IMG/VR virus record: IMGVR_UViG_3300043413_000048
Coordinates: 1 to 33,962 of that record
From: a virus
DNA: 33,962 nt
Reading direction: 5' to 3' (one strand)
The position numbers and the translations under genes are program-made. Positions 2,179 through 26,929 of this stretch are shown here, piece by piece. The notes under the pieces are model-generated. The model made no database searches. It was given only the letters and a program-made list of their open reading frames with translations, and had not been told where the DNA came from. Position 1 is the stretch's first letter, and every line of letters starts with the position of its first letter.

Positions 2179-2706
2179 ATGGGCAAAGAACAATTGGAAC
2201 ACGACGAACGATCATACGTAGAGGGCCGAGCCATGGCACTGCGCGAAGTCATGAGGCATTGCGCGCGTGAATTGGGCATTTGGCATTCAGAAGACCCGCT
2301 TATCTCGCTGGCGCATGTCCAGGATGAGCTTGCCAGAGTACGTACGCAGATCCGCGAATTGGCGGAAGATGTTGGCTGCGAATGGGACGAGAGCTTGGAC
2401 TTGGCTGATTTCGTTGAAAAACGCCTGGCGCGGGTGATTGCGCAAAAGCAGGAGGAGCGAGAACAGATGAGCTTCACGCGGGTACACAACGCAGAAACAA
2501 CGATTGGCGATGAGAAGTACGCGCTGGTGGTTTATGCCGACCAAAGCGCGGTGTTTGCTATTGTCGCCGCGGGATCTTTGCAAAGCGAACGTTCACTTGG
2601 TCCTGACGAGGACGGATCGGATGTTGCGATCAGTGGCGAAGCGCGGGCTTGGTTCGATAAAGAATTGGCTGCCGGGCGGTCAAAGGCAAAGGATGGTGAA
2701 TCTTGA
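2179..2706 (+). CDS. Hypothetical protein, first gene of a three-gene plus-strand island
   Basis: A 175-residue protein of unknown function. Residues ~1-105 are strongly charged and helical, with Glu/Arg-rich heptad-like stretches (for example DELARVRTQIRELAEDVG). Residues ~105-145 look like a small beta-containing domain (EKYALVVYADQSAVFAIV). The frame is open further upstream, but that part lies antisense to the tape measure gene; the ATG at 2179 sits just after a GGTGG and is the most likely start, with an in-frame GTG at 2173 as alternative. The last four bases overlap the next gene. The island lies between the tape measure and tail assembly genes, opposite to the late operon, so the product is probably accessory. 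Confidence 0.65.
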   Translation: MGKEQLEHDERSYVEGRAMALREVMRHCARELGIWHSEDPLISLAHVQDELARVRTQIRELAEDVGCEWDESLDLADFVEKRLARVIAQKQEEREQMSFTRVHNAETTIGDEKYALVVYADQSAVFAIVAAGSLQSERSLGPDEDGSDVAISGEARAWFDKELAAGRSKAKDGES

Positions 2707-2969
2707 CAGATGAGGCTCTTTTGAAGTGTGCATTCGCCGCATTCGATATTGTTGCGCCAGATTATGAACCCACAATGGGCAAGCCGACACCGAAAGAACG
2801 CGATAAGATTTGTCGGGCACTCGCCCGTGATATGCGCAAAGGAGTGGCGATTGTGCCAGAAGTCAGCGCGGCACCACAAGAGCAACAGTTGCGGGTAGCT
2901 GTTCATGCAGGGACTAAACTGATTCGCAAATTGATCGATGATACGCTCGCAAAGGACGGTGAATCGTGA
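2703..2969 (+). CDS. Hypothetical small helical protein (TTG start)
   Basis: An 88-residue protein of unknown function. Its TTG start overlaps the stop of the previous gene in the four bases TTGA, and an AAAGGATGG ribosome binding site lies just upstream, so translational coupling is likely. The protein is mostly alpha-helical, has two conserved-looking basic patches (PTPKERDKICRALARDMRK and HAGTKLIRKLIDD) and ends in KDGES. The preceding gene ends in the same five residues, and the DNA around both stop/start junctions is nearly identical. It is the middle gene of the plus-strand island between tape measure and tail assembly genes. Confidence 0.65.
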   Translation: MTDEALLKCAFAAFDIVAPDYEPTMGKPTPKERDKICRALARDMRKGVAIVPEVSAAPQEQQLRVAVHAGTKLIRKLIDDTLAKDGES

Positions 2970-3631
2970 GCAAGACCAAGGGCGAGTTGTTTCTGGACGC
3001 GGCCATCGAAGCTGATCTGGAGCTTTACATTTTGGGAGATTGGGAAGACCCGCGCCTACTGCAAAGCGCTGCGGCTGCTGCTGAAAAATACGAGAGCATG
3101 CGCGCACAGCTTCCCGCCGACGTCGAGAAGTTCGTCATCATCCGCAAGCAAGGCGCGGAGAATGCCAAACAGCGCGAACGCCAGCGCAAATACGAGGCAG
3201 GTCATCCTCACTGGCAATGCCAAAACAAAACGTGCGCCGTGCTGAATCGTTGCCACGTTGACAAATGCACAGCATGCGGAACGGAAGCCCCAGAATTGGC
3301 ATTGCTGCGCCAACGTGCAGCTAAAGTTGAAGGACTCGAATCATCGCTTCGTCGCATGCAGGAAGAGCGTGACGAGGCGCGAAGAGCCGTCGCTTTCCTG
3401 CAAAAGGTGTCAGCCGACAAAGATGTGAGGATCGAGTCACTGGAGCTTTCGTTTGCAAGCAACTCTAGCTCCAAACCATTGGTTGTCGACGCGACAAACA
3501 AATGTCTGGAGTGTGATGGTAAAGGAGAATACGAAACAGATGTTTGCAAGAATTGTGAATCGCCATTGTTCACATTTTGCGATGCGTGCGCTGGCTCTGG
3601 TGTCCGATTGAATATATTGAACGACGAGTAA
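2966..3631 (+). CDS. Zinc-finger protein with RanBP2-type and DnaJ-type cysteine motifs (GTG start)
   Basis: A 221-residue protein with two separate zinc-binding regions. Residues 83-104 match the RanBP2/NZF zinc finger pattern W-x-C-x4-C-x3-N-x6-C-x2-C (W83, C85, C90, N94, C101, C104). A charged coiled-coil segment follows at ~110-160. Residues 180-212 hold CxxCxGxG (C180, C183), CxxC (C194, C197) and CxxCxGxG (C205, C208), as in the cysteine-rich domain of DnaJ. The GTG start overlaps the previous stop in GTGA after AAAGGACGG, so the gene is coupled to its neighbour. Its TAA stop is two bases from the TAG stop of the convergent tail assembly gene. The function is unknown; such fingers usually bind protein, RNA or ubiquitin-like partners. 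Confidence 0.75.
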   Translation: MSKTKGELFLDAAIEADLELYILGDWEDPRLLQSAAAAAEKYESMRAQLPADVEKFVIIRKQGAENAKQRERQRKYEAGHPHWQCQNKTCAVLNRCHVDKCTACGTEAPELALLRQRAAKVEGLESSLRRMQEERDEARRAVAFLQKVSADKDVRIESLELSFASNSSSKPLVVDATNKCLECDGKGEYETDVCKNCESPLFTFCDACAGSGVRLNILNDE

Positions 3632-3633
3632 CC

Positions 3634-4191
3634 CTACGCCACTTCCATCATCGCAGCTTTGAGTAGGCGCCGCATCCGTCGAGCCCGCTCCAGCTCCATC
3701 CCGTCAAACAAATCCCCCGCCAATAGCGCCTCAGCCATTACCATCAGTTGTTCGTCCGTTGCCTCTGGTGCAATCGTGGATGTCCTGATCTGGTAAATTT
3801 CGTAATGGTCCCAAAGCAGCTGAAGCCCAGACGTCGTGAGGTCTTGTGCGACTTGGCTGTCGCGCTGAAACCAGCGTCGCTCGATGTTGTCCGGGTACAC
3901 CACCGCGTCAAACAGGATGGTGGCAATAAGATGCGAATTGAACGCTTCAAGCCACACTTCTTCCGACGCCAAGTCACGGTGGTTTTTATTAGCGAACGAC
4001 TCCGCCGCCGATCGTGCCCGAGCCACTTCCGACTCGGACACGATTTTGAGCCCCAGCTTGACCGCAGTTGTTGGCACGTTGGGGCGCCCTGCGACCCAGA
4101 TGGTTGGGGGCACCTCGACGACGTAGCCAGACTTCTTTGAAGCCGCCGCCTTCATTGCGGTGAATGGGCTTTTGTTTACGGTGGCGTTCAT
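3634..4191 (-). CDS. Putative tail assembly protein, upstream of tape measure
   Basis: A 185-residue protein with no motif I recognise by sequence. The N-terminal half holds a short beta-like segment (GYVVEVPPTIWVAGRPNVP) and an Ala/Arg/Glu-rich helical part; the C-terminal half is acidic and helical, ending in a basic helix. In contractile phages the slot between tail tube and tape measure is usually filled by one or two tail assembly chaperones (Mu gp41 region), and the ATG here overlaps the stop of the preceding gene by ATGA as chaperone pairs often do. Length fits that role. No slippery sequence was confirmed, and the two genes are encoded in an ordinary ATGA overlap instead of a frameshift. 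Confidence 0.6.
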   Translation of the reverse strand: MNATVNKSPFTAMKAAASKKSGYVVEVPPTIWVAGRPNVPTTAVKLGLKIVSESEVARARSAAESFANKNHRDLASEEVWLEAFNSHLIATILFDAVVYPDNIERRWFQRDSQVAQDLTTSGLQLLWDHYEIYQIRTSTIAPEATDEQLMVMAEALLAGDLFDGMELERARRMRRLLKAAMMEVA

Positions 4192-7265: not shown

Positions 7266-7475
7266 ATGAACATGGCTGCGTCTCAACACAAGCCGACGAG
7301 GGACGAGATTGGTGCGCTGTCAGTTGCTATTCGCGCCGCGGTCGAATGCGCTATTACGTGGGGCTGGAATGAAACTCAATTCACCCGTCTCGCAAGGTAT
7401 TGGTTTGCCAAACATTCACGAACCGATTACGTGGATCACGTGACGGGCGAAGTCGACGATCTTGCCGACTCCTAA
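7266..7475 (+). CDS. Hypothetical small protein, single-gene plus-strand island
   Basis: A 69-residue protein of unknown function, starting at ATG 7266 (another ATG follows two codons later, and the frame also opens at 7245). The middle is an amphipathic helix with Trp residues (AITWGWNETQFTRLARYWF), followed by an acidic end. It runs against the late operon. Its TAA stop (7473-7475) shares bases with the TAG stop of the convergent gene in the four bases CTAA, inside a short inverted repeat CCGACT-CCTA-AGTCGG at 7465-7480. The exact fit between two late genes supports it being real, but no family is recognised. Confidence 0.5.
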   Translation: MNMAASQHKPTRDEIGALSVAIRAAVECAITWGWNETQFTRLARYWFAKHSRTDYVDHVTGEVDDLADS

Positions 7476-8560
7476 GTCGGAATCTGCATCTGTTGCACAA
7501 ACCCCGCCCCATTCGCGCTAACCGTCCCCGACAATCCATTCAACGTTGACGCGTCTCGCACCCAAGGTTCGTACGTTTCGAGCGGGCATTCCACCGCATC
7601 ATACGATCGTTGAACCGTCACACCGTTCGCGCCTTGAATTGGAATCGTGATTGGCTTCGCCGTCCAATTGCCAGCGCGCTTTATCCCACATGGAGCAAAG
7701 TTCAGGACCATTGAACCACGGCCCTGGTATGCGCTCAGGCCAAACTCGATCGTCCCGGTAACATCTGCTTGTGCGTCGACGTCAATTTGCGTCACCTGCA
7801 AAAACGAATACGTCGTGGAAAGCGTCGCCGGGAATGTGGCTGTCGAAATGGTGATGGTGTCCGTAAAGTCGACACCAAGCACGTTTTTCCCGGTCACTGT
7901 CACAACGGAGCCGTCGACAAATGCTGCCGAGTCGCCATCGATCGTGATCGTTGCTTTACGAGGCTGCACAAACGCGCTGTCGCCCACTGCGCCATCGAGA
8001 GCGGCGCCAGAATAGCTTTGCGCCGTCGTGGATGATGCCAAAATCAGTTTTACCGCGTTCGGGTCGGCTACAAGGCTTGCCGCTGTCGGGTCCGTGTCGT
8101 TGGGGTGGACATATACGGGGTCGCGATCGCTTTCAATAGCTGCGTCGATAAGCTTCGTGATCGCGTTGACGTATGGGACACGGATGCGCTCTGCTGGTTG
8201 TGTACCCGTTGGGAAGATCCAAAGCAGCGTTATCGTATCCATTGACACGCGCCAGTCTGTTGCTTCCCATGAGTTTGCCGCGCCTGAAGCTCGGTACACG
8301 TACAGCGCTGGGAGGTATTTCTCGTTGAATGGCGCAATCGTCTCGTCGGTGGGCTGATGCGTGAACGTTGTCTTCACGGGTGGCACCTGCCCGGCATCGT
8401 TCGAGCGAGGGAACGCTTTGGCCCAAGCCGCTTCGCCATAGGCGTTGATATACGCCTTCAGGTACGCCGCCCACACGTCGAGCGCGGGATCCCCAGTTGC
8501 CTCGGTCGACGGGTCCGTGGGAGCCGTAACCGGAATTGTGATTGCGCCGTAGGTGGTCAA
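7472..8560 (-). CDS. Putative tail terminator/neck protein with an inserted Ig-like domain (TTG start)
   Basis: A 362-residue protein in the tail terminator slot (Mu gp37-like position), between the HK97 gp10-like gene and the gp38-like gene. The first ~165 residues and the last ~75 residues look like the terminator part (for example AERIRVPYVNAITKLIDAAIESD). Between them, roughly residues 170-290, is a beta-rich insertion that aligns with the small virion protein encoded at 15761-16414: both have SYSG/TYSG-AL-G, a PR-TIT/PRNITV strand, a TVTG/TITG strand, TDTITIS/TETITVS and a late Gly-rich strand. The start is TTG at 8558-8560. The stop shares CTAA with the plus-strand island gene. Terminator function is inferred from position. 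Confidence 0.6.
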   Translation of the reverse strand: MTTYGAITIPVTAPTDPSTEATGDPALDVWAAYLKAYINAYGEAAWAKAFPRSNDAGQVPPVKTTFTHQPTDETIAPFNEKYLPALYVYRASGAANSWEATDWRVSMDTITLLWIFPTGTQPAERIRVPYVNAITKLIDAAIESDRDPVYVHPNDTDPTAASLVADPNAVKLILASSTTAQSYSGAALDGAVGDSAFVQPRKATITIDGDSAAFVDGSVVTVTGKNVLGVDFTDTITISTATFPATLSTTYSFLQVTQIDVDAQADVTGTIEFGLSAYQGRGSMVLNFAPCGIKRAGNWTAKPITIPIQGANGVTVQRSYDAVECPLETYEPWVRDASTLNGLSGTVSANGAGFVQQMQIPT

Positions 8561-11513: not shown

Positions 11514-12128
11514 TCAGGTCACGACGGGCGGGGGAGCGCTCAACTCGTGGCGCGCTTCAATGATGGCGTTCTCGCGCGGCATGCCCTTGCGCACTTTTTC
11601 TTCGGTCAACGTTGCAAGTTTCGATGCCACCTCGCCGCGTTGCGCTGCCGTAGCCGACGCTGAACTCATGCCGCCACCTGCCCACGCACTTCGCGGCGTA
11701 AACATTCCCGGAGGCGCTGCAATCGCTTGCGGTGCTGCATCGCCGCCTGGTTGACGATTCGAGAGCGTGCGTTGCAAGTGTCGCTCGTTCGGCGCCACTT
11801 CCGGGTAAAGCGTGTTGAACGTCGGGCGATCGTGCCGATACGTGAGCAACATCGACTTTTTGTGTGCATCGGTGAGCTTGTGCGTGTCCTTGTACGTCGC
11901 AAAAGCTTTCTCGATTGCAGCAACTTCGTCCGCCTCAGCCCGCTTTGCTTCGTTGTCGCGCAGTTGCTTGACCTCCGTTTCGAGCGCTGCAACGCGAGAG
12001 GTCTTGTCTGCGAGCTGGAGCTCGAGACCAGCGACTTTGGTCTCGGACGCTTGCTTGTCAGCCAAAAGCGTGGCGAGTTTGTTTTCAGCATCGCGCAGTT
12101 TGATGGCGACTTCTTGTTGTTCCGACAT
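11514..12128 (-). CDS. Possible nested scaffold protein from an internal start
   Basis: In Mu, the scaffold is made from an internal in-frame start within the protease gene. Here Met763 of the head fusion (ATG at 12128) begins MSEQQEVAIKLRDAEN, immediately before the coiled-coil scaffold region, giving a 204-residue product. A GGGA lies about nine bases upstream, and a second in-frame ATG at 12143 is too close to GGGAG to be the better start. The product would be charged, helical and end in Pro/Ala-rich sequence, matching a scaffold. Whether both forms are made cannot be seen from DNA alone. Confidence 0.45.
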   Translation of the reverse strand: MSEQQEVAIKLRDAENKLATLLADKQASETKVAGLELQLADKTSRVAALETEVKQLRDNEAKRAEADEVAAIEKAFATYKDTHKLTDAHKKSMLLTYRHDRPTFNTLYPEVAPNERHLQRTLSNRQPGGDAAPQAIAAPPGMFTPRSAWAGGGMSSASATAAQRGEVASKLATLTEEKVRKGMPRENAIIEARHELSAPPPVVT

Positions 12129-14414
12129 ATTCGTGTTTCCCATCTCCCGCGATGATGGCGGGCCTTCTCCATGCATTTCGTCTTCGTGGATGCCGATCGC
12201 ATCGGCGATCATTGCTTCCACAGCGTCCAACAATTCGGGCACCGTAATGCCCAAGTTCATTTGCATCGTGTCGCGCACACCGCGCAGCATCGTGCCAAGG
12301 TCTACCCCTGCATGAACCGCGGTCATCAGATCGCCTTCTGGGTCGCTGTCGCGATACTCGTCGATCAATTCACGCAGTTCGCAAATCCGATCAAGCACTG
12401 CTCGAGCAGTTGCGATCGAACCTTCGCCAAAAAGGCACGCCCGCAATTTGGGCAATACCTCATTCATGTTGTAGGCGTAGTCGCCCATTTGTTTTGCCTT
12501 GTCGCCCGTGGTTGTTGTGGGACGGTCCGATGCGGCGACAGGCAACATCCCGTCCAAAAAGGGATTGTTCGTCAATGCCCCGCTGGTCATTCGTGCCCCA
12601 ATCGGTTGGCTGGTGACACGGTCCTTGGCGCCGAAACGAATGGCAGGGCTAAAGAATTTGTATTTGCCTTGCTTGATGTAGCTCCGCGCGGGCTCGAGCC
12701 ATTCGACAAGCCCCCAAAGACCGGCTGCTCCACGATCGTCGAGGTCGATGATCCACCCTTGCGCGGGAGCGCCATCAGTTGGGATCGCGCCCTCCGTTGG
12801 GTGCTGTTCTGATGCATGCTCAAAGTCGATCGGGATGCGCTGGTTCTGCGTCGCTCGAAAGTTGCGGACAATTTCCGCATTGACTTGGCGCGTGATTTCA
12901 AACGGTCCCGATTGATGGCCGCGAAAAGCCCCAAGCTTGTTGAGCTGAATCCACACCAGCTTTTGCGGCTCGAATGGACCAGCGTCGTCGAGCAGAGCTT
13001 TCGTGTCGAGTTCTACCGCGCTGCATTGCACGGGCCGATCTGACATGTGGTAAACGTGAATCGACGTCAGCTTACCATTGGTGCGATAACGCAAACCGCG
13101 GAATCCTTTGGCGACTGGCTTGCCCTCGTGCTTGATTCCAAAACGTTTATACGCCTTCAGGATATTCTTGTGCGCTTTGGCGTATTGCTCCGGGGAAAGT
13201 CGCCCCTTGTTTTGTTCGAGGCGCGCCATTGCATTGCGGGCGTGTGCTGCGTCGTGAATCGGGTATTGCCTTGTTTCTGGCAACGCGAACGATTCGTCTG
13301 GCAACGCTTTGCGTCCCTTGGTCGTGATTGGCTTCAATTGTCGTACCTTTACCGGACCATCGGCATGCACGTCGGCTTGCCCGTTGTCGGCTTTTTTTGT
13401 CGAGTCTTTCATGTTCTTTGCTTTCTCGTCAGCGCTATTCAATTGCGCGACGACTTTGCGCGCCCATGCATATCCAGGGTCGCCGCCCCAGAGCGCCCAC
13501 GCAATTCGTCCATTTGACGGGAATCCATCCTCGCCCGGACTGAATCCAGCGCCCTTTTTGTCGACTTGGTGCCGGTCAAAGAATGCCTTCATACGACGAA
13601 CTGTCGAGGGAGAAAGCCGTGCCGCGTTGGCAAGGTCCCGAGCCCGAGCTACGCCTACAGCGGTGCCACCTCGACCATGCTCGCGCCGCCATTCGAGTCC
13701 GCGCTTTGCTTCTTCTTGTGCCCCTTTTGGCGGTACAAAGTCGATGTGCGAATACTTCTCAGGGCCGTCTGCCATTGTAACAATGTCGCTCATATTCGCC
13801 TTGTATTCGCCCATTGGAGCGGAACCGCCCCAGCCTTTATCAGCTGGCCAATCTGGCGGAGCCTTAGAAATGCCGATTTGCTTGGCTTCTGATACGGACA
13901 GCCCACGCAACATCGAACGGCATCGGTGGTGCCTCATTGGCGCATTGGTCGCAAACCATAGATGACCAGCGGGAAGCACGACTGGATGCGTCAGGAAATA
14001 CCCGCACGTTGCACTCGTAACCTCGTCGTTGACGACATCCAGCGTCCAATATGGGTATGCTGTCCGCTGCTTGTTGAGCCGTGCGACAACCGCTTGATTT
14101 GTAGCTTGCTGGACGTTGTTGACGAAGATCGTTTTAAGCTGTGGGGAATCAATGCCCCATTGCGCGCCAAGCTTGTGTCCAGCTTCTTTGACGAATTCGC
14201 GGTAAGGAACACCGTCAGCCTTTGCTTTGGCAAGCGCGTCGCGCATGTTTCGGATCGCATCACGAGAAACTTCGTTGGTCACCGTGATCGCCCGTTTTTT
14301 GGTTTCTGCGTCGAGCTTTGCAAAGTCCGCGGGAAGCAGGGGCGACTTGGCTCGAAGGATGTGAGCTGCTTCGACGTCGCCCTTCAGTTCGATGCTTGCG
14401 TGCTCGTTTTGCAT
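11514..14414 (-). CDS. MuF head protein fused to DUF domain, Mu gpI-like protease and scaffold
   Basis: A 966-residue multidomain head protein. Residues 1-175: MuF/SPP1 gp7-like minor head domain with Cys137 and the end motif HHRCRSML. Residues ~222-330: a domain with GRIAWALWGGDPGYAWA, common in phage head proteins. Residues ~385-430: a helical segment resembling DUF6582 (AHARNAMARL...AYKRFGIKHEG). Residues ~485-625: Mu-like prohead protease I, with LVWIQLNKLGAF, IPIDFEHAS (His533), GAPAQGWI, VEWLEPARSYI, KFFSPAI (Ser589) and GALTNNPFLDG. Residues 765-835: coiled coil, then a flexible Pro/Ala tail, as in scaffolds. ATG 14414 was chosen because the 26 upstream codons overlap the divergent island gene. 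Protease cleavage between domains is likely but inferred. Confidence 0.88.
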   Translation of the reverse strand: MQNEHASIELKGDVEAAHILRAKSPLLPADFAKLDAETKKRAITVTNEVSRDAIRNMRDALAKAKADGVPYREFVKEAGHKLGAQWGIDSPQLKTIFVNNVQQATNQAVVARLNKQRTAYPYWTLDVVNDEVTSATCGYFLTHPVVLPAGHLWFATNAPMRHHRCRSMLRGLSVSEAKQIGISKAPPDWPADKGWGGSAPMGEYKANMSDIVTMADGPEKYSHIDFVPPKGAQEEAKRGLEWRREHGRGGTAVGVARARDLANAARLSPSTVRRMKAFFDRHQVDKKGAGFSPGEDGFPSNGRIAWALWGGDPGYAWARKVVAQLNSADEKAKNMKDSTKKADNGQADVHADGPVKVRQLKPITTKGRKALPDESFALPETRQYPIHDAAHARNAMARLEQNKGRLSPEQYAKAHKNILKAYKRFGIKHEGKPVAKGFRGLRYRTNGKLTSIHVYHMSDRPVQCSAVELDTKALLDDAGPFEPQKLVWIQLNKLGAFRGHQSGPFEITRQVNAEIVRNFRATQNQRIPIDFEHASEQHPTEGAIPTDGAPAQGWIIDLDDRGAAGLWGLVEWLEPARSYIKQGKYKFFSPAIRFGAKDRVTSQPIGARMTSGALTNNPFLDGMLPVAASDRPTTTTGDKAKQMGDYAYNMNEVLPKLRACLFGEGSIATARAVLDRICELRELIDEYRDSDPEGDLMTAVHAGVDLGTMLRGVRDTMQMNLGITVPELLDAVEAMIADAIGIHEDEMHGEGPPSSREMGNTNMSEQQEVAIKLRDAENKLATLLADKQASETKVAGLELQLADKTSRVAALETEVKQLRDNEAKRAEADEVAAIEKAFATYKDTHKLTDAHKKSMLLTYRHDRPTFNTLYPEVAPNERHLQRTLSNRQPGGDAAPQAIAAPPGMFTPRSAWAGGGMSSASATAAQRGEVASKLATLTEEKVRKGMPRENAIIEARHELSAPPPVVT

Positions 14415-14451
14415 GGTTACGGTCTTGTCTCTACCTGCACGGGAGACATCG

Positions 14452-14979
14452 ATGAAACTACGACCTGAACAACAGAAGCTTTGGCGACGCATTTATTTGA
14501 ACGCGTTCGAGGGTGGCGCAACCACCGCGGAGTCTGCCGAAATGGCGGATACCGCCGTGAAGCAGTGGGAAGAGCGCGGCGCGTTCGATTCGCCCGAGCT
14601 GTTCGGAAATGCCGAACAGCTGAAAACATCCAAGCCGATTACTTCGTGGGATCGCTTTTCCAAAAACGTCAGCATCATGCTGAACAACGATCGACCTGTC
14701 GACGACATCAAAACCTTGTTCAACGAATACCCGGACGAACTAGATTTTCTTCAGGCGTTGGTTCCATTTGCGGAACCGAAGATCTACGTATTTCGGGGCG
14801 ATCCACGTGAAGCGCTACAGCGGCTATGTAACAATTCACTCCATGACGACATCGGCGTGTCGGTACGGCTCGGCAAGCAAGAATTTGGACTTTTCGCCTT
14901 AACGGAGCAAGGCGCCAAGCTTTTGGCAGACGTCCATCGTGATCTGGTCATTCCAGAGCTTCGTTGGCTGAAGTCGTAG
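14452..14979 (+). CDS. Hypothetical protein, single-gene plus-strand island
   Basis: A 175-residue protein of unknown function starting at ATG 14452, six bases after a good GGGAG ribosome binding site. The first ~60 residues are helical (PEQQKLWRRIYLNAFEGG, then Ala/Glu-rich), the middle has an acidic helix (DDIKTLFNEYPDELDFLQAL), and the C-terminal ~60 residues mix short strands and helices (IYVFRGDPREALQRLCNN, EFGLFALTEQGAKLLADV). It lies divergent from the MuF-protease gene (37 bases between starts) and converges with the small gene at 14982. No family was recognised. Confidence 0.65.
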   Translation: MKLRPEQQKLWRRIYLNAFEGGATTAESAEMADTAVKQWEERGAFDSPELFGNAEQLKTSKPITSWDRFSKNVSIMLNNDRPVDDIKTLFNEYPDELDFLQALVPFAEPKIYVFRGDPREALQRLCNNSLHDDIGVSVRLGKQEFGLFALTEQGAKLLADVHRDLVIPELRWLKS

Positions 14980-14981
14980 AG

Positions 14982-15212
14982 CTACACCCCGCCCACGCTC
15001 GTCCCGTTCATCATCGCCCTAACAAGTACGCCTTCCAATCCATCCGCCCGAGCTTTGCCTTCTAGGCGCCTCAATTTCGCGTCGGCCGCATCGTACCCGT
15101 CCGAAGACTCGATGATCTCACGAACGTCTCGTAAAAGCGGAGCTAGCGCCTTTGCCGCTGGCGCCAGCGAGTCGTCGACTATCTGGTCGACTTGCTTGAC
15201 GATGTTGTTCAT
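14982..15212 (-). CDS. Small protein resembling the C-terminal helical part of DUF935 portals
   Basis: A 76-residue helical protein. The run from AKALAPLLRDVREIIESS through LRRLEGKARADGLEGVLVRAMMNG is close in character to the C-terminal helices of Mu gp29-type (DUF935) portal proteins, which usually end with L-A-P-x-L-x-x-I, a Ser-containing turn and a final L-x-R-A-hydrophobic-G segment. The portal encoded at 16401-18074 lacks this and ends in an acidic tail instead, so this gene may be a detached portal domain. It overlaps the Dps-like gene by ATGA, and its TAG stop is two bases from the plus-strand island stop. The match is from memory. Confidence 0.45.
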   Translation of the reverse strand: MNNIVKQVDQIVDDSLAPAAKALAPLLRDVREIIESSDGYDAADAKLRRLEGKARADGLEGVLVRAMMNGTSVGGV

Positions 15213-15685
15213 CCCACATGCGCCAGAATCTTCCAGCCAAGCTTTGAGATCGCCATGCTGGTATCAAGAAGCTTCTGCTGCGCATCATCGTCGCCAAGCG
15301 CAAGCAGCTCCGCCTTGGGTTCATTCACGATGTCGAGGACCTGCGTCAGCCGAGAACCCACCGCGGGGATGAGGTCCCGTCCTTGCGTCACCGTCGATGG
15401 CATCCCAGTGATCGCCGAAAGCTTTGCCACATCCAAGTGATCGCCTTCGACTGCAAGTCCAAGCATTGCAATATGCTCGGCAATGACATCCGCATGATCC
15501 GACGCCGCGGTGTATAGCTCGCCGAAAAGCTTGTGCAGTGGCACAAATGCCACACCGCGCACGTTCCAATGCGCCTTGCGCGCAATTCCAGCAAGCGACA
15601 ACAACGCAATCACGACAGGCTGAAGCAACGCCGCGACACGTACGCGTTTTTCTTCAGGCATCGACGACGGAGTGGGAAACGACAT
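15209..15685 (-). CDS. Dps-family ferritin-like protein
   Basis: A 158-residue protein of the Dps (DNA-binding protein from starved cells) family, which normally forms 12-mers that bind and oxidise iron and protect DNA. ATG 15685 follows GGGTG. The motif HWNVRGVAFVPLH gives His39 and His51 at the exact 12-residue spacing of the Dps ferroxidase site; DHADVIAEHIAMLG gives Asp66 and Glu70, the matching acidic ligands. The position of the family's other conserved Asp (four residues after the second His) is Gly55, with Glu56 next to it. The C-terminus ends with the usual amphipathic helix (ISKLGWKILAHVG). It is coupled to the next gene by ATGA and lies inside the head operon. Loss of ferroxidase activity is possible. 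Confidence 0.85.
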   Translation of the reverse strand: MSFPTPSSMPEEKRVRVAALLQPVVIALLSLAGIARKAHWNVRGVAFVPLHKLFGELYTAASDHADVIAEHIAMLGLAVEGDHLDVAKLSAITGMPSTVTQGRDLIPAVGSRLTQVLDIVNEPKAELLALGDDDAQQKLLDTSMAISKLGWKILAHVG

Positions 15686-15760
15686 TTTGCACCCAATTGG
15701 CAATAGGACAGCAAGGAGGCTGAAACAACAATGCTCCAGCCTCACGAGCAAAACTCAATA

Positions 15761-16414
15761 TCAGGCGTCGACCATGTACACGACAGCGTAATCGTTCGTG
15801 CCGTTCGGCGCCGTGTTGGGCGAGTAGCTCCCGTAAGGGCCACTCGTCGCCGGCAAAACGAATGTACCGTTGGTCACGACGCTGCCGTTGAAAACTTCTT
15901 TGACCACGCCGCCGTTCGAGGCGCCACCAACGTCTCGCAATTTCGAGTCGAGTCCAAGCACGTTGCCGATTCCGAAAGCGAGCGTCGCGTCCGTTCCATC
16001 CGCTGCCGTAAGCGTGATAGATGTGACCGAAGCGAACGCTTTGACGCCAGCGGCCGTCGCTGCCGTTTGCGAGACCGTGATCGTCTCCGTTTGCGTGCTG
16101 CCGTCCGCAGCCGTGCCGGTGATCGTCGCCGACGCTGGAGCATCCGCCGGCGTGCTGCCCGCAGTGGTCACCGTGATATTTCGAGGCGGCGAGATCGCTG
16201 AAGCTCCAATGGAACCGTTCAGCGCCGAACCTGAATACGTCGTGGCTGATGCCACCGTAGCGATCGCCGTCTTGATAGCGTTCGTCGATGCGGCGGCCGG
16301 ATTCGTAAACGTCTGGTGACGCAAAGGTACTTGCTGCGAAGCCCAGACGCACAGGCTTGGCACGGAATTGCCCTGCGTTTGGTTGTTGAAGACAAAGTTT
16401 TCAGGCGCGTTCAT
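15761..16414 (-). CDS. Ig-like/beta-rich virion protein after the portal gene
   Basis: A 217-residue protein, small residues Ala, Thr, Ser and Gly predominating. ATG 16414 lies 14 bases inside the portal gene end, and the long upstream extension in this frame is antisense-free but Arg/Lys-rich and overlaps the portal in another frame, so it was rejected. The middle (residues ~55-155) is an Ig-like set of strands: TYSGSALNG, PPRNITVTTAG, ASATITGTAADG, TETITVS and a late LAFGIGN strand. The same pattern is found inserted in the tail terminator-like protein at 7472-8560. The C-terminal ~60 residues are Gly/Asn/Tyr-rich. It may be a decoration or fibre-like head protein. Confidence 0.65.
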   Translation of the reverse strand: MNAPENFVFNNQTQGNSVPSLCVWASQQVPLRHQTFTNPAAASTNAIKTAIATVASATTYSGSALNGSIGASAISPPRNITVTTAGSTPADAPASATITGTAADGSTQTETITVSQTAATAAGVKAFASVTSITLTAADGTDATLAFGIGNVLGLDSKLRDVGGASNGGVVKEVFNGSVVTNGTFVLPATSGPYGSYSPNTAPNGTNDYAVVYMVDA

Positions 16415-18074
16415 CCGTTTCGTCCTTTTCTTCTTCTGAATCGTCGTTTTCGCCCGCGCCGATTTGCGTCGAGCGGTCTTCTTCCGCTTCCGTGGATTCT
16501 GCCACAGCTGGCGGCACGTTTTGCTTTTGCGTTGGCATGACTTCCAAAGCTTTGGCCTGGAACAGAATGCGTGCATCTGGATCGTTTTTATCCGCCAACA
16601 GATGCGCCATGCCCACCGCTGCGACAGCCTTGTCCGCGTCAAGCGGGGCACCAATGCCGACCAACGTCTGGATGCGCTCCAGCATGGCATCCGGACCAGG
16701 CTCGTCCTCGATTTGAAGGACAATCGTTGGGCACAACCGCTCGAGTGATGGGTAGTTTAGCCTCGTAATCGGAAGCGCAACGTCGCGCGTCCATGTTCCG
16801 CTGAGACCAACCGCATCATAAAACGTTACCTTGTCCGAGCCTTTTACCAGGACCTCGAGCGCGCTGCGAGACCCATTGCGTTGCAATCCCTGGAGCGCAC
16901 TGGTCGTCTTGATGGCTCGAGCGATCTGATCGTCGCACCATTCGACAAACGCCTTTGGGTCGCTTGTGGAGTTGCCGCCCTTTTGCGCCGCGGGGCCAAA
17001 AAGCTCAAGTTCGATGGAATCTGGAATCGCTGCGCCTGGAGCCCCGCCGTAACCCATGGATTGGACCACCTGTTGAGCAAGAGCGATATCCTCTGGCGTC
17101 GCGTCTCTTGGTTTGCCGTCGCTTTGCTTTGTGTTGTACGTGGCTACCGTCCCCGGCTTGGCGTACTTTTCGATGAATTGGATAAAATTGCGCGCCCCCA
17201 TGAGCTTTGCCGCAATCCACCAGGCGAGAATGAACCCGAGCCCGTCCTCGGTAGGGTATCCACTCAGAACTTCTGAAGTGTGGATCAGGAACTTGTTGGG
17301 GAAATCATTGGCGTTGAAGCCAAACATCCCCTGCGTCAGGTATTGCTTCCATTCTGGTCCCGTTGGCGCGACGAGCCCCTGATCCCAGATATGGGGATCC
17401 CAGTTGTATTGGTCTGGGTAGCTGATTCGCCGCGGGTGAATGAAGTGCAGTTTCGTGAGTCGCCATTCTTGATGCGTGCGCGCCCACAGCAACTCGTTGG
17501 CGGATACGCCGTAATAGATGCTCCAAAGCTGTTGGGCAAGTGTCTGCGCTTTGCGAGGTAGGTGGTCGATCTGGTGTTGGATATGAGCTGCAATTTGATT
17601 GGCCAAAATGCGCTCATCTTCCGACATTGAGATGGGAGCAGAGGAAAGCCCTGCTTGCTCTCGAATAATGCGCACACGTTCGCGCTCTGCTGTTCCAAGC
17701 TCATCCGCTGGAAATTCTTTTGCCGCGCTGATGACGTTGATCTTGCCGCCAGCAGACGCAAGGATGCGCGACGTCAGGTTGCCATATGCACTTGGGTCAC
17801 GACGCACCAGCTCACGAAGCAGGTCCATCCATTGGAGCCGATAGCCAATCTGCGCTTGGCGCTGGCATGCCGCGATGTATTGAAACGAAACGTTGGACCC
17901 AATGATGATCGGATATCGATCAACGTTTGGCCAAGGAGCCATCATCGATGGATCGTAATGCGGGGCTGGTGATCGCTCTCCGGGCTGGATGACTCGCATC
18001 AGCGTCGAGCCCGCGTCGCGTGCAGCGCCTACAATTCGCTCGCCCGTTGCTTGAAGTCTGTCGATGAGATTCAT
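16401..18074 (-). CDS. Portal protein (DUF935, Mu gp29-like)
   Basis: A 557-residue portal protein of the DUF935 family, the dodecameric ring through which DNA enters and leaves the head. Signs are the MDLLRELVRRDPSAYGNL segment, the helix-rich IQHQIDHLPRKAQTLAQQL region, the conserved KLHFIHPRRISYP segment and the FLIHTSEVLSGYP turn, the helix ending in GARNFIQFIEKYAKPG, and a late GSRSALEVLVKGSDK segment. After residue ~510 it becomes an acidic low-complexity tail (EEEKDETDE) instead of the usual C-terminal helical domain. Start and the preceding terminase stop are directly adjacent (TAA then ATG). Confidence 0.92.
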   Translation of the reverse strand: MNLIDRLQATGERIVGAARDAGSTLMRVIQPGERSPAPHYDPSMMAPWPNVDRYPIIIGSNVSFQYIAACQRQAQIGYRLQWMDLLRELVRRDPSAYGNLTSRILASAGGKINVISAAKEFPADELGTAERERVRIIREQAGLSSAPISMSEDERILANQIAAHIQHQIDHLPRKAQTLAQQLWSIYYGVSANELLWARTHQEWRLTKLHFIHPRRISYPDQYNWDPHIWDQGLVAPTGPEWKQYLTQGMFGFNANDFPNKFLIHTSEVLSGYPTEDGLGFILAWWIAAKLMGARNFIQFIEKYAKPGTVATYNTKQSDGKPRDATPEDIALAQQVVQSMGYGGAPGAAIPDSIELELFGPAAQKGGNSTSDPKAFVEWCDDQIARAIKTTSALQGLQRNGSRSALEVLVKGSDKVTFYDAVGLSGTWTRDVALPITRLNYPSLERLCPTIVLQIEDEPGPDAMLERIQTLVGIGAPLDADKAVAAVGMAHLLADKNDPDARILFQAKALEVMPTQKQNVPPAVAESTEAEEDRSTQIGAGENDDSEEEKDETDERA

Positions 18075-19592
18075 TTAGATTCCAAGCGTCTGAGATTCGA
18101 GATTAGGCATTGGCATGGGTGGTGGCGCCTTCACTGGCGCGTGCATCGTGCGTTGTGCGTAGTTCCAGGCAAGAGAACCTGCGTCCACGTCGTCGTCAAT
18201 CGCATCATTTACGCCCGTAAAGTCAATATGCGTTCGCACGACCGGCCCCACCCATGAGGCTGTAATTGGCACACGGACTCGTCCCGCATTCCATGCAGCC
18301 GCGTAGGGCTGTGCTCGAGTAAACTTGTCGCCTTGCGGGTATTCCTCGACAATGCGAAGCGACGCATTCACATCACGAAGAACCTGTGGAACGGCTTTCC
18401 CGATGCCAGACGACTCAACCACAAGTGGAGCCCCACCATATCTCTTCTGAAGCGCTTCTAGTCTCCGGCAGACTTCGGGGATTGTTTCCTGCATTCGTTC
18501 AGCGTCAATGATGTCCGCCGTCATCAAGTCGCCATAGCCACGAACAGCAAAAACCAACGCGACTGAAAAGTTGGCCGACGTCTTTGCGGTGCCTGCTACG
18601 TCCACGCCGATAATGATGCGAGCCCCATTGATTACTGGATTGCCTGAATATGTAGCAGGGTCGCCGAACACTCGAGCGCCTCTTGGTCTAGGGTGGCCTT
18701 GGAAAAGGCTTGCCCAATCATATTCGCCAACAAGCGCACGTCGTCGTTCGAGCTTTTTTAACGGCCATTGTTCTGGCCACAATGCAAGTCCTGTCGTTTC
18801 GTCGATCGCTTGAAGATTGATATGGCGCCAATTCTCGCCCTCTGCTCCGCCTGTTGAATCCCAAAGTTCTTTTTGCTTCAAACATCGACCGATCAAGTCG
18901 TCTTCGTGCCATCGTGTATGACATACGATAACCGAGCCATCCGGCTCCAAGCGAGTCAACGCTGTAGACGTGAACCAGTCCCAATTTCTATTTCGGATGA
19001 GCGCGCTTTCCGCTTCCTGACGATTTTTTGTTGGATCATCGATGATCAGGACCCGCATGCCTTGACCAGTCAATGGGCCGCCCATACCAGTCGCACGCAT
19101 CCCACCGCCAAAAGTGGTCAGCCACTCTTGCAGCGAATCAGCATCACGTCGCTGCGGCACTCCAGCTGCCCGAGCGTAGTCTCGAGCGCTACGGCTCTTT
19201 GAATTGGCCAGGTTCGACTGATAGGTGACGTATCCGATGATCGTTCGAGGATCGTCGCAAAGCATCCACGCGATGCCGTGGAGAAGTGTCTCGGTCTTTG
19301 CGTGTCGGGGCGGAACGGAGAGAAGGATTCTCAGCGGTTCACGGTGAGCCCGTTCCAAAGCATGCGCGAGTTCGGCAAGATGCGTCGGCTTACTGAACTT
19401 TGGGGAGACTCGTGGAATGAAGTCCAAGAGTGGCTCTGGCGCTTTGTTTTTGAGATCTTCCTTCGACGCCTCGACAACTTCAACCTGTGGCGCCTTTGGT
19501 CTTGCCGCCTCTAGTGCATGAATCGCGTTCGCGAGGTCCAAGGAGGCTTGCTCCGCCGAATCGATTCGACGACGAGCTACAGAGCCACGCAT
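18075..19592 (-). CDS. terL: Terminase large subunit
   Basis: A 505-residue packaging motor with ATPase and nuclease domains. Walker A lies at residues ~93-101 (VPPRHAKTE), Walker B at 181-187 (VLIIDDP) and the terminase coupling segment at 224-232 (CHTRWHEDD). The nuclease domain has Asp331 in GVDVAGT, Glu393 in VESSG and an acidic cluster at 466-470 (DDDVD), the three acidic positions expected of an RNase H-like nuclease. It packages DNA through the portal encoded immediately downstream. The start overlaps the small gene 19577-19819 by 16 bases. No typical small-terminase subunit was recognised nearby. Confidence 0.95.
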   Translation of the reverse strand: MRGSVARRRIDSAEQASLDLANAIHALEAARPKAPQVEVVEASKEDLKNKAPEPLLDFIPRVSPKFSKPTHLAELAHALERAHREPLRILLSVPPRHAKTETLLHGIAWMLCDDPRTIIGYVTYQSNLANSKSRSARDYARAAGVPQRRDADSLQEWLTTFGGGMRATGMGGPLTGQGMRVLIIDDPTKNRQEAESALIRNRNWDWFTSTALTRLEPDGSVIVCHTRWHEDDLIGRCLKQKELWDSTGGAEGENWRHINLQAIDETTGLALWPEQWPLKKLERRRALVGEYDWASLFQGHPRPRGARVFGDPATYSGNPVINGARIIIGVDVAGTAKTSANFSVALVFAVRGYGDLMTADIIDAERMQETIPEVCRRLEALQKRYGGAPLVVESSGIGKAVPQVLRDVNASLRIVEEYPQGDKFTRAQPYAAAWNAGRVRVPITASWVGPVVRTHIDFTGVNDAIDDDVDAGSLAWNYAQRTMHAPVKAPPPMPMPNLESQTLGI

Positions 19593-23991: not shown

Positions 23992-24600
23992 TCATCGAAT
24001 CAGGTCCAGCAACTTGCCCCGGTTGGCGTGGTCTGCGGGCGTCAGCATGAGCGTTTCGAGCTCGTTCGCCGTGACCCAATCGAATCCAGCAACAGCTTCG
24101 GCGTTGGCGGAGTAGGGGCCGATGATCGCTGATGATGGGATAAAGCGACACATAACTCGCATTGGTTGCCCGGTGCGAGAAGAAGTGAACTCGTGCGTGT
24201 AGACCGGATCCATATGTGGCCACAAGTCTCCACCAAAAAGACCGTAATTGGCGCGTGCGCCATGTTCTTCGGCCAACTCGCGAAAAAGAGCAGACCATAA
24301 GCCCTCGTTCGGACCCGCTTTCCCGCCCGGCGTGCACCAATGCCATGGATAAGAGGTTTTTCCCGATCGTCGCTGGACGAACAGCCTTTTGGCGTCCGTG
24401 TCCACGATGGCCGCTGTCACGACGATGATCGGGTCAATGTTGTTGGGTCCTGAGAGTTCGATGGTGGTTGGAAAGTCCATTGCAAGAATCTGCTCACGAT
24501 TCTCGACCGCGCAACGCAAAACGCCCCGGATTTCTCCAGGGCGTGTGAACACTTCATCTTTTGAAAAACGATAGCGGGCTTTCACCGCTGTCCCCGACAC
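23992..24600 (-). CDS. Nudix hydrolase (GTG start)
   Basis: A 202-residue Nudix-fold enzyme; the family hydrolyses nucleoside diphosphates linked to another group (such as ADP-ribose or NAD derivatives). The Nudix box is complete at residues 93-115: Gly93, Glu99, Arg107, Glu108, Glu111, Glu112 and Gly114 in G-x5-E-x7-R-E-x2-E-E-x-G, using the start at GTG 24600. The region before it (IIVVTAAIVDTDAKRLFVQ) is the usual beta-strand pair. A perfect AAAGGAGG ribosome binding site lies eight bases before this GTG. An overlapping ATG at 24602 opens a six-codon frame. The substrate cannot be told from sequence. Confidence 0.85.
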   Translation of the reverse strand: MSGTAVKARYRFSKDEVFTRPGEIRGVLRCAVENREQILAMDFPTTIELSGPNNIDPIIVVTAAIVDTDAKRLFVQRRSGKTSYPWHWCTPGGKAGPNEGLWSALFRELAEEHGARANYGLFGGDLWPHMDPVYTHEFTSSRTGQPMRVMCRFIPSSAIIGPYSANAEAVAGFDWVTANELETLMLTPADHANRGKLLDLIR

Positions 24601-26662: not shown

Positions 26663-26929
26663 TCAATTGGCAGACACCTCTTGCCAGTCCTCTGAGAGGA
26701 TGTCTGCCTGCGAAGCGAGCCATCCAGGCTGGTGCTTTCCTTGTGCGGTGAACATCACGATTACGGGCTCATACTTGCATTCTTGGCCCTTAAACGTACC
26801 GCTTGGTGCCACCCAATGCAAGCTGTCTTCAAAATAAATATGCATCCCTTTGCCGTTCCAGCCCATGCGCTGGACGCGCTTGCCAGCCTTGATTCGCTTG
26901 ATCGCTTCGCCGAAATCGAACGTTGCCAT
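26663..26929 (-). CDS. DUF2829/Tad2-like protein, candidate anti-Thoeris factor
   Basis: An 88-residue protein of the DUF2829 family, renamed for its member Tad2, an anti-defence protein reported to sequester the cyclic ADP-ribose-type signal of host Thoeris systems. The family pattern is clear: FGEAIKRIKAGKRVQRMGWNG (residues 6-26, the F-x-E-A-[IL]-x-x-[IL]-x-x-G-K-x-V-x-R-x-G-W-N-G core), KGMHIYFED, and WLASQADILSEDW (70-82) at the C-terminus. It is the usual family length. AGGAGA seven bases before ATG 26929 gives a strong start, and operator-like repeats lie upstream. Some DUF2829 members serve other roles, so the anti-defence function is likely, not proven. Confidence 0.85.
   Translation of the reverse strand: MATFDFGEAIKRIKAGKRVQRMGWNGKGMHIYFEDSLHWVAPSGTFKGQECKYEPVIVMFTAQGKHQPGWLASQADILSEDWQEVSAN

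Follow-up and report, generated by a model that had tools for sequence, protein, structure and literature searches.

A Dps-family gene within an apparently split portal gene of a Mu-type phage, and Dps genes beside head genes in other phages

The head cluster and the split portal gene

The window analyzed here, the whole stretch of DNA under study, is a complete IMG/VR record of 33,962 bases with 56% G+C. It holds a Mu-type head and tail cluster on the minus strand, comprising terminase, portal, 217-aa, Dps, 76-aa, and MuF-protease genes, together with genes for cement or scaffold, the major head protein, the neck, and the tail sheath. The features around the Dps gene are as follows.

18075..19592, minus strand: terminase large subunit, upstream of the portal gene (phrog_38, 3.7e-78)
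16401..18074, minus strand: portal body, 557 aa, with an acidic tail at its end (PF06074, 1e-39; phrog_113; alignment with seven portals)
15761..16414, minus strand: decoration-like protein, 217 aa, overlapping the end of the portal gene by 14 nt (putative role)
15716..15743, minus strand: 12-bp hairpin without a U-tract, separating the decoration-like and Dps genes (fold z-score)
15209..15685, minus strand: Dps-family protein, 158 aa (PF00210; phrog_3636; phmmer against the PDB; AlphaFold2; fold match to 3ge4)
14982..15212, minus strand: 76-aa detached C-terminal domain of the Mu-type portal (phrog_10231; phrog_113; HMM of portal C-termini)
11514..14492, minus strand: MuF minor head protein fused to a Mu-I-type capsid protease, 992 aa (PF10123, 5.9e-26; phrog_220; phrog_328)

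An earlier sequence-only reading had placed the Dps gene between portal-associated and head-morphogenesis genes and had proposed its translational coupling to a neighbor. Both proposals hold, since the gene is flanked by the portal (16401-18074) and the MuF/Mu-I protease (11514-14492), and its TGA (15209-15211) overlaps the ATG (15210-15212) of the 76-aa gene as ATGA. The 217-aa protein (15761-16414) had no match in PHROG or Pfam and shares a domain of about 130 aa with another protein of the window (7472-8560, minus strand; 36% identity over 134 aa, E value of 2e-14); calling it decoration-like is a guess from its composition and place. The region holding the hairpin (15680-15775) had a fold z-score of -3.4, and the hairpin could be an attenuator or a processing site. 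Searches for RNA families and tRNAs in the window found none. Other minus-strand genes include a Tad2-like protein (26663-26929; PF11195, 7e-24), of a Thoeris anti-defense family, and a NUDIX hydrolase (23992-24600; PF00293, 4e-12), and a DUF6582 stretch lies between the MuF and Mu-I protease parts of the 992-aa protein.

Aligned with seven portals, the portal body of the window lacks the usual C-terminal domain, and when it was aligned with these intact proteins together with the 76-aa protein, the latter filled the missing C terminus. The 76-aa protein matched positions 190 to 247 of phrog_10231 (1.3e-4) as well as positions 450 to 507 of the phrog_113 portal; the earlier part of phrog_10231 matched the window's own portal, and a myxobacterial portal (L306) matched phrog_10231 along a single chain. 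A profile HMM of the C-terminal 95 residues from seven Mu-type portals gave 15.1 bits for the 76-aa protein (9.3 bits for the best of about 2,000 shuffles) and -0.4 bits for the window portal itself. A tblastn search of the 76-aa gene against GenBank phages gave no match, so its identity as a portal domain rests on profiles, by which it is the C-terminal domain of the window's own portal. A single portal gene with MuF directly behind it is the arrangement of five annotated Mu-like phages and of L306. Given this arrangement and the detached C terminus, the 217-aa and Dps genes stand inside what was ancestrally one portal gene, and we infer that this cassette was inserted, rather than that the portal domain moved.

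Relatives of the large terminase subunit (TerL) with 39 to 46% identity were found in genomes of Myxococcota, the only bacterial group searched in this way, and those in IMG/VR were only 23 to 28% identical; a myxobacterial (soil) host is likely from these similarities. Of the related TerL loci in Myxococcota, 16 were examined and none had a Dps gene, which is thus dispensable in the wider family. No near relatives came up when the Dps, portal, and major head protein of the window were each scanned against IMG/VR, and megablast of the window against GenBank phages gave no match.

The Dps protein and its ferroxidase site

The Dps open reading frame starts with ATG. Its product matched the Pfam ferritin family PF00210 with an E value of 8e-9 (36 bits against a curated cut-off of 24.5), phrog_3636 with 2.5e-13, and Dps chains in the PDB with values down to 5.6e-15 (phmmer). 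The AlphaFold2 model (pLDDT of 97.4) has helices at residues 11 to 41, 47 to 74, 83 to 89, 102 to 121, and 133 to 154, that is, a four-helix bundle with a short BC helix. The nearest solved chain was Brucella Dps 3ge4 (Z of 24.4, rmsd of 1.3, 158 residues), followed by Agrobacterium tumefaciens Dps. The Dps-family assignment of the sequence-only reading is therefore confirmed by Pfam, PHROG, and PDB matches and by the predicted structure; structure prediction, which had been named beforehand as a possible refutation, gave a ferritin-like fold. The score against the NCBIfam equivalog of E. coli-type Dps (NF006975) was 77.4 bits, below its cut-off of 114, so that the protein belongs to the Dps family without being an E. 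coli Dps orthologue. With the bacterial proteins (Brucella 3ge4, A. tumefaciens 1o9r, and E. coli 1dps) it shares the whole-length fold (Z of 23 to 24, rmsd of 1.2 to 1.3, 24 to 27% identity) and four of the five ferroxidase ligands; unlike them, it has Gly at site B, no basic tail, and a gene located inside a phage portal gene.

The alignment confirmed the ligands named from the sequence, with His39, His51, Asp66, and Glu70 corresponding to E. coli His51, His63, Asp78, and Glu82 (an offset of 12), and Gly55 in place of Asp67, the fifth ligand, at site B. Since the canonical ferroxidase center at the dimer interface has five ligands, of which the window protein keeps four, Gly55 bars the label "canonical ferroxidase center." It does not bar membership in the Dps family, because known Dps proteins vary there too. 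Although Nostoc Dps4 has a noncoordinating Asn at position 67, both of its sites bind iron, with an additional His, and this position serves metal site B only, holding iron via a water molecule (PMC6675082); an altered site thus need not be an inactive one. Judged from its residues, metal site A (His39, Asp66, and Glu70) appears intact and site B impaired by the missing carboxylate, and iron oxidation would be expected to be slower, not absent, with partial activity.

The alteration announced by the sequence-only reading is thus real, and what did not stand is its being a peculiarity of this gene, as it is a trait of the clade and common in phage Dps. Gly occupies this position in all five members of a sub-clade (the window, L167, L015, L016, and L018), each of which retains the other four ligands, Asp66 and Glu70 included. 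Cyanophage Dps also have Gly there (LFGEQY) and keep the remaining site, and Gly was the commonest residue at the position among 81 aligned phage Dps, most of them from cyanophages, by which we rejected a uniqueness of Gly55 to the window. Compensation by the neighboring Glu56 was rejected as well, the next residue in the sub-clade being E, G, E, D, or K. In a genome scan, 69 of 70 cellular relatives with the same motif had Asp (near-identical loci make the 70 approximate), after exclusion of a cyanophage contig in a MAG (L252), a prophage copy (L204), and the degenerate second frame of L232. This last locus (2630-3756), from a Bradyrhizobiaceae MAG, is the exception to Asp, and carries tandem Dps genes beside metal-efflux-like genes; one of the two shares the Gly at this ferroxidase position, and the site of the other is degenerate.

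The suggestion that the protein might bind the phage DNA fared worse. It has no Lys/Arg-rich terminal tail (N terminus MSFPTPSSMPEEKRVRVAAL, C terminus AISKLGWKILAHVG). Its net charge is -3, and the rest of the phage-only clade described below, which holds its nearest relatives among phages, is more acidic (-6 to -13). Binding in the usual Dps way is not supported, and canonical DNA binding is unlikely on the basis of these sequences.

Dps genes beside head genes in other phages

A profile scan of IMG/VR gave 506 Dps loci. Among the best 80 of these, which were retained, many small phages had Dps at the portal. The portals were SPP1-like (phrog_104/64/145, PF05133) in L015/L016, L026, and L033/L034, and also in L167, which was added by a portal-family scan; Mu-type (PF06074) in L032; also PF06074 in L029/L039/L262; and phrog_533 in a prophage of Microbacterium ginsengisoli (L030, the same as L204), where terminase, portal, and MuF are followed by Dps. 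In L015, L016, L026, L033, and L167, the start of Dps either overlaps the end of the portal gene or lies directly against it, an arrangement from which the window differs. L018 is cut off upstream and has MuF after Dps. In L029, L039, L259, and L262, Dps lies between portal and protease on the strand opposite the head genes, which argues against simple coexpression with them there. The gene after Dps in three of these (L029, L259, and L262) encodes a small protein whose cysteine motif suggests a SWIM zinc finger.

A last scan, in which loci were chosen by sequence motif and not by location, gave 35 loci. Counted by eye, about 12 lineages had Dps at portal, protease, or terminase genes (the L015/L018 type, L032, L027, L030, L029, L259, L262, L270, L273, L038, L283, and L287) and seven had it elsewhere, L285 being cut off. 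In L270 a lambda-type portal (PF05136, 1e-88) is followed by Dps and then by a DNA methyltransferase, and in L273 Dps follows the capsid protease. L283 encodes, behind a phrog_776 portal, a 405-aa protein that joins a capsid-protease-like N-terminal part to a Dps domain (residues 260 to 399; PF00210, 2e-14), and contig L282 carries an identical copy. A fold search of BFVD also placed three "Prohead protease" proteins with a Dps fold, A0A6J7XDU5, A0A6J7WPK9, and A0A6J7WIS1, among the closest viral folds. A binomial test of the head linkage was set aside, as lineage counts and background rates had been picked by eye post hoc.

A common portal family behind the linkage was not supported, as profiles A2 and A7 (three sequences each) do not match. 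By the gene orders recovered, a Dps gene next to portal, protease, or terminase genes occurs in phages whose portals belong to several unrelated families. Elsewhere in the SPP1-like portal family, a P-loop kinase or Zn-ribbon gene takes the place of Dps. In many phages, among them Streptomyces phages, Grimontviridae, a cyanophage, and SU10, the Dps gene is surrounded by genes of metabolism. Phage Dps as such is already known; in the open-license literature searched, we found no paper on its linkage to head genes, on portals split in this way, or on fusions of Dps to a protease, and these three features are apparently new.

In the phylogenetic trees the window Dps fell in a phage-only clade with L167, L015, L016, L018, L026, and L033 (support 99/98, and 97/97 in a second tree), although bootstraps had not settled and the window branch is long, so that its fine placement is unsure. 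The same portal-linked clade was recovered in the widest set (87/99), with two long-branch rows joining it, and the Gly sub-clade within it had 89/78, short of firm support. The other head-linked Dps fell outside this clade, that of L030 being nested in actinobacterial Dps (100/99). A single origin of the head-linked Dps, with eleven rows held together, was rejected (p-AU of 2.4e-4). By these trees, several independent events placed Dps in the portal-protease-terminase region.

Possible roles of Dps at the head

Phage Dps is usually read as a metabolic helper, and its placement here raises the question of whether a mini-ferritin can be part of a phage head. We tentatively favor, with slightly less than even confidence, the view that the window Dps is a late-made, probably weakened ferroxidase that acts at the head and is possibly associated with the virion. 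In a Mu-type phage with a contractile tail, Dps and the decoration-like gene would have entered the portal gene and cut off its C-terminal domain, which is now a small gene of its own, translationally coupled to Dps. The protein would then be synthesized late, together with the head proteins, and form the usual dodecameric cage, which may act at or in the forming head, taking up ferrous iron and consuming peroxide near the packaged DNA; some copies would perhaps be carried in or on the virion. Three observations make a link to the head or virion more plausible: the recurrence of Dps at portal and protease genes in unrelated phages, the capsid protease-Dps fusion (L282/L283), and the Dps of Proteus phage Privateer, which was detected by LC-MS/MS in CsCl-purified virions (PMC7881722). 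In SU10, a relative of Privateer, Dps (CDS67) is a middle gene and was found in a PEG preparation without CsCl purification (PMC4281155), and such proteomic detection of phage Dps could be copurification. Two other apparent reports of virion Dps, Lacusarx and AH14, were false leads, the "DPS" being a method or "Ps." strings.

A serious contender, which we also consider quite possible though short of probable, is that the portal/MuF junction is a tolerant slot for accessory genes and that Dps works in the cytoplasm as an antioxidant and iron scavenger during infection, its place reflecting harmless insertion and read-through from the late promoter. The kinase and Zn-ribbon genes found in the same slot, the methyltransferase behind Dps in L270, the Dps-free myxobacterial TerL loci, and the phage Dps among metabolism genes all fit this explanation, and the opposite-strand Dps of four head clusters fits it better than it does action at the head. 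It accounts less well for the repeated arrival of the same gene family from separate sources, for the fusion to a capsid protease, and for Dps start codons that overlap the end of the portal gene in several lineages.

That the cage is instead ferroxidase-dead, a structural or assembly part of the portal or head in which Gly55 marks lost iron chemistry, seems improbable to us. The uniform Gly of the five sub-clade members against the near-uniform Asp of cellular relatives and the long branch of the window Dps would agree with such a loss, but every member retains the other four ligands, both sites of Nostoc Dps4 bind iron in spite of its Asn here, and Gly-bearing cyanophage Dps keep the rest of the site. 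A nucleoid-like role inside the head, with phage DNA bound and compacted as by E. coli Dps, is very hard to credit, as it has in its favor the family name and the position at the head, and against it the lack of a basic tail at either end, the negative charge throughout the clade, and A. tumefaciens Dps, the second-best solved match, which according to its entry title protects DNA without binding it.

Beyond the window, a more speculative and, in our judgment, rather unlikely generalization is that recruitment of a ferritin-family cage as head-associated cargo has occurred repeatedly among phages. The cage would be loaded through its linkage to portal or protease and carried in the virion, where it would protect the packaged DNA against iron and peroxide, or from which it would be delivered to the next host. 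Phages would then have a counterpart of the encapsulins that hold ferritin-like cargo. EncA/EncB/EncC of Myxococcus xanthus combine a ferritin-family protein with an HK97-fold shell (PMC9321382), and the likeness is an analogy only: unlike the encapsulin, the present case involves a full, DNA-packaging phage head and shows no targeting peptide in Dps. If true, the generalization would bear on virion survival under oxidative damage, on phages as carriers of iron, and on how phage capsids and ferritin-loaded encapsulins are related.

Previously described phage Dps resemble that of the window to different degrees. Those of Privateer and the kuravirus SU10 are likewise phage encoded, the former in purified virions, and the SU10 gene differs in lying outside the head operon. 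For Dps of Lactobacillus and gut "Gratiaviridae" phages, relief of oxidative stress has been proposed (PMC6669764, PMC8008677), and the available parts of these papers describe them as metabolic genes and report no head linkage. Cyanophage Dps of the S-SRM01 type share the Gly of the window protein, form a separate branch, and lie away from the head genes in the records in which a T4-type protease was found. The contig L252, binned as Microbacteriaceae, appears to be a cyanophage too; it opens with a photosystem-like gene and carries a Dps of the phage type.
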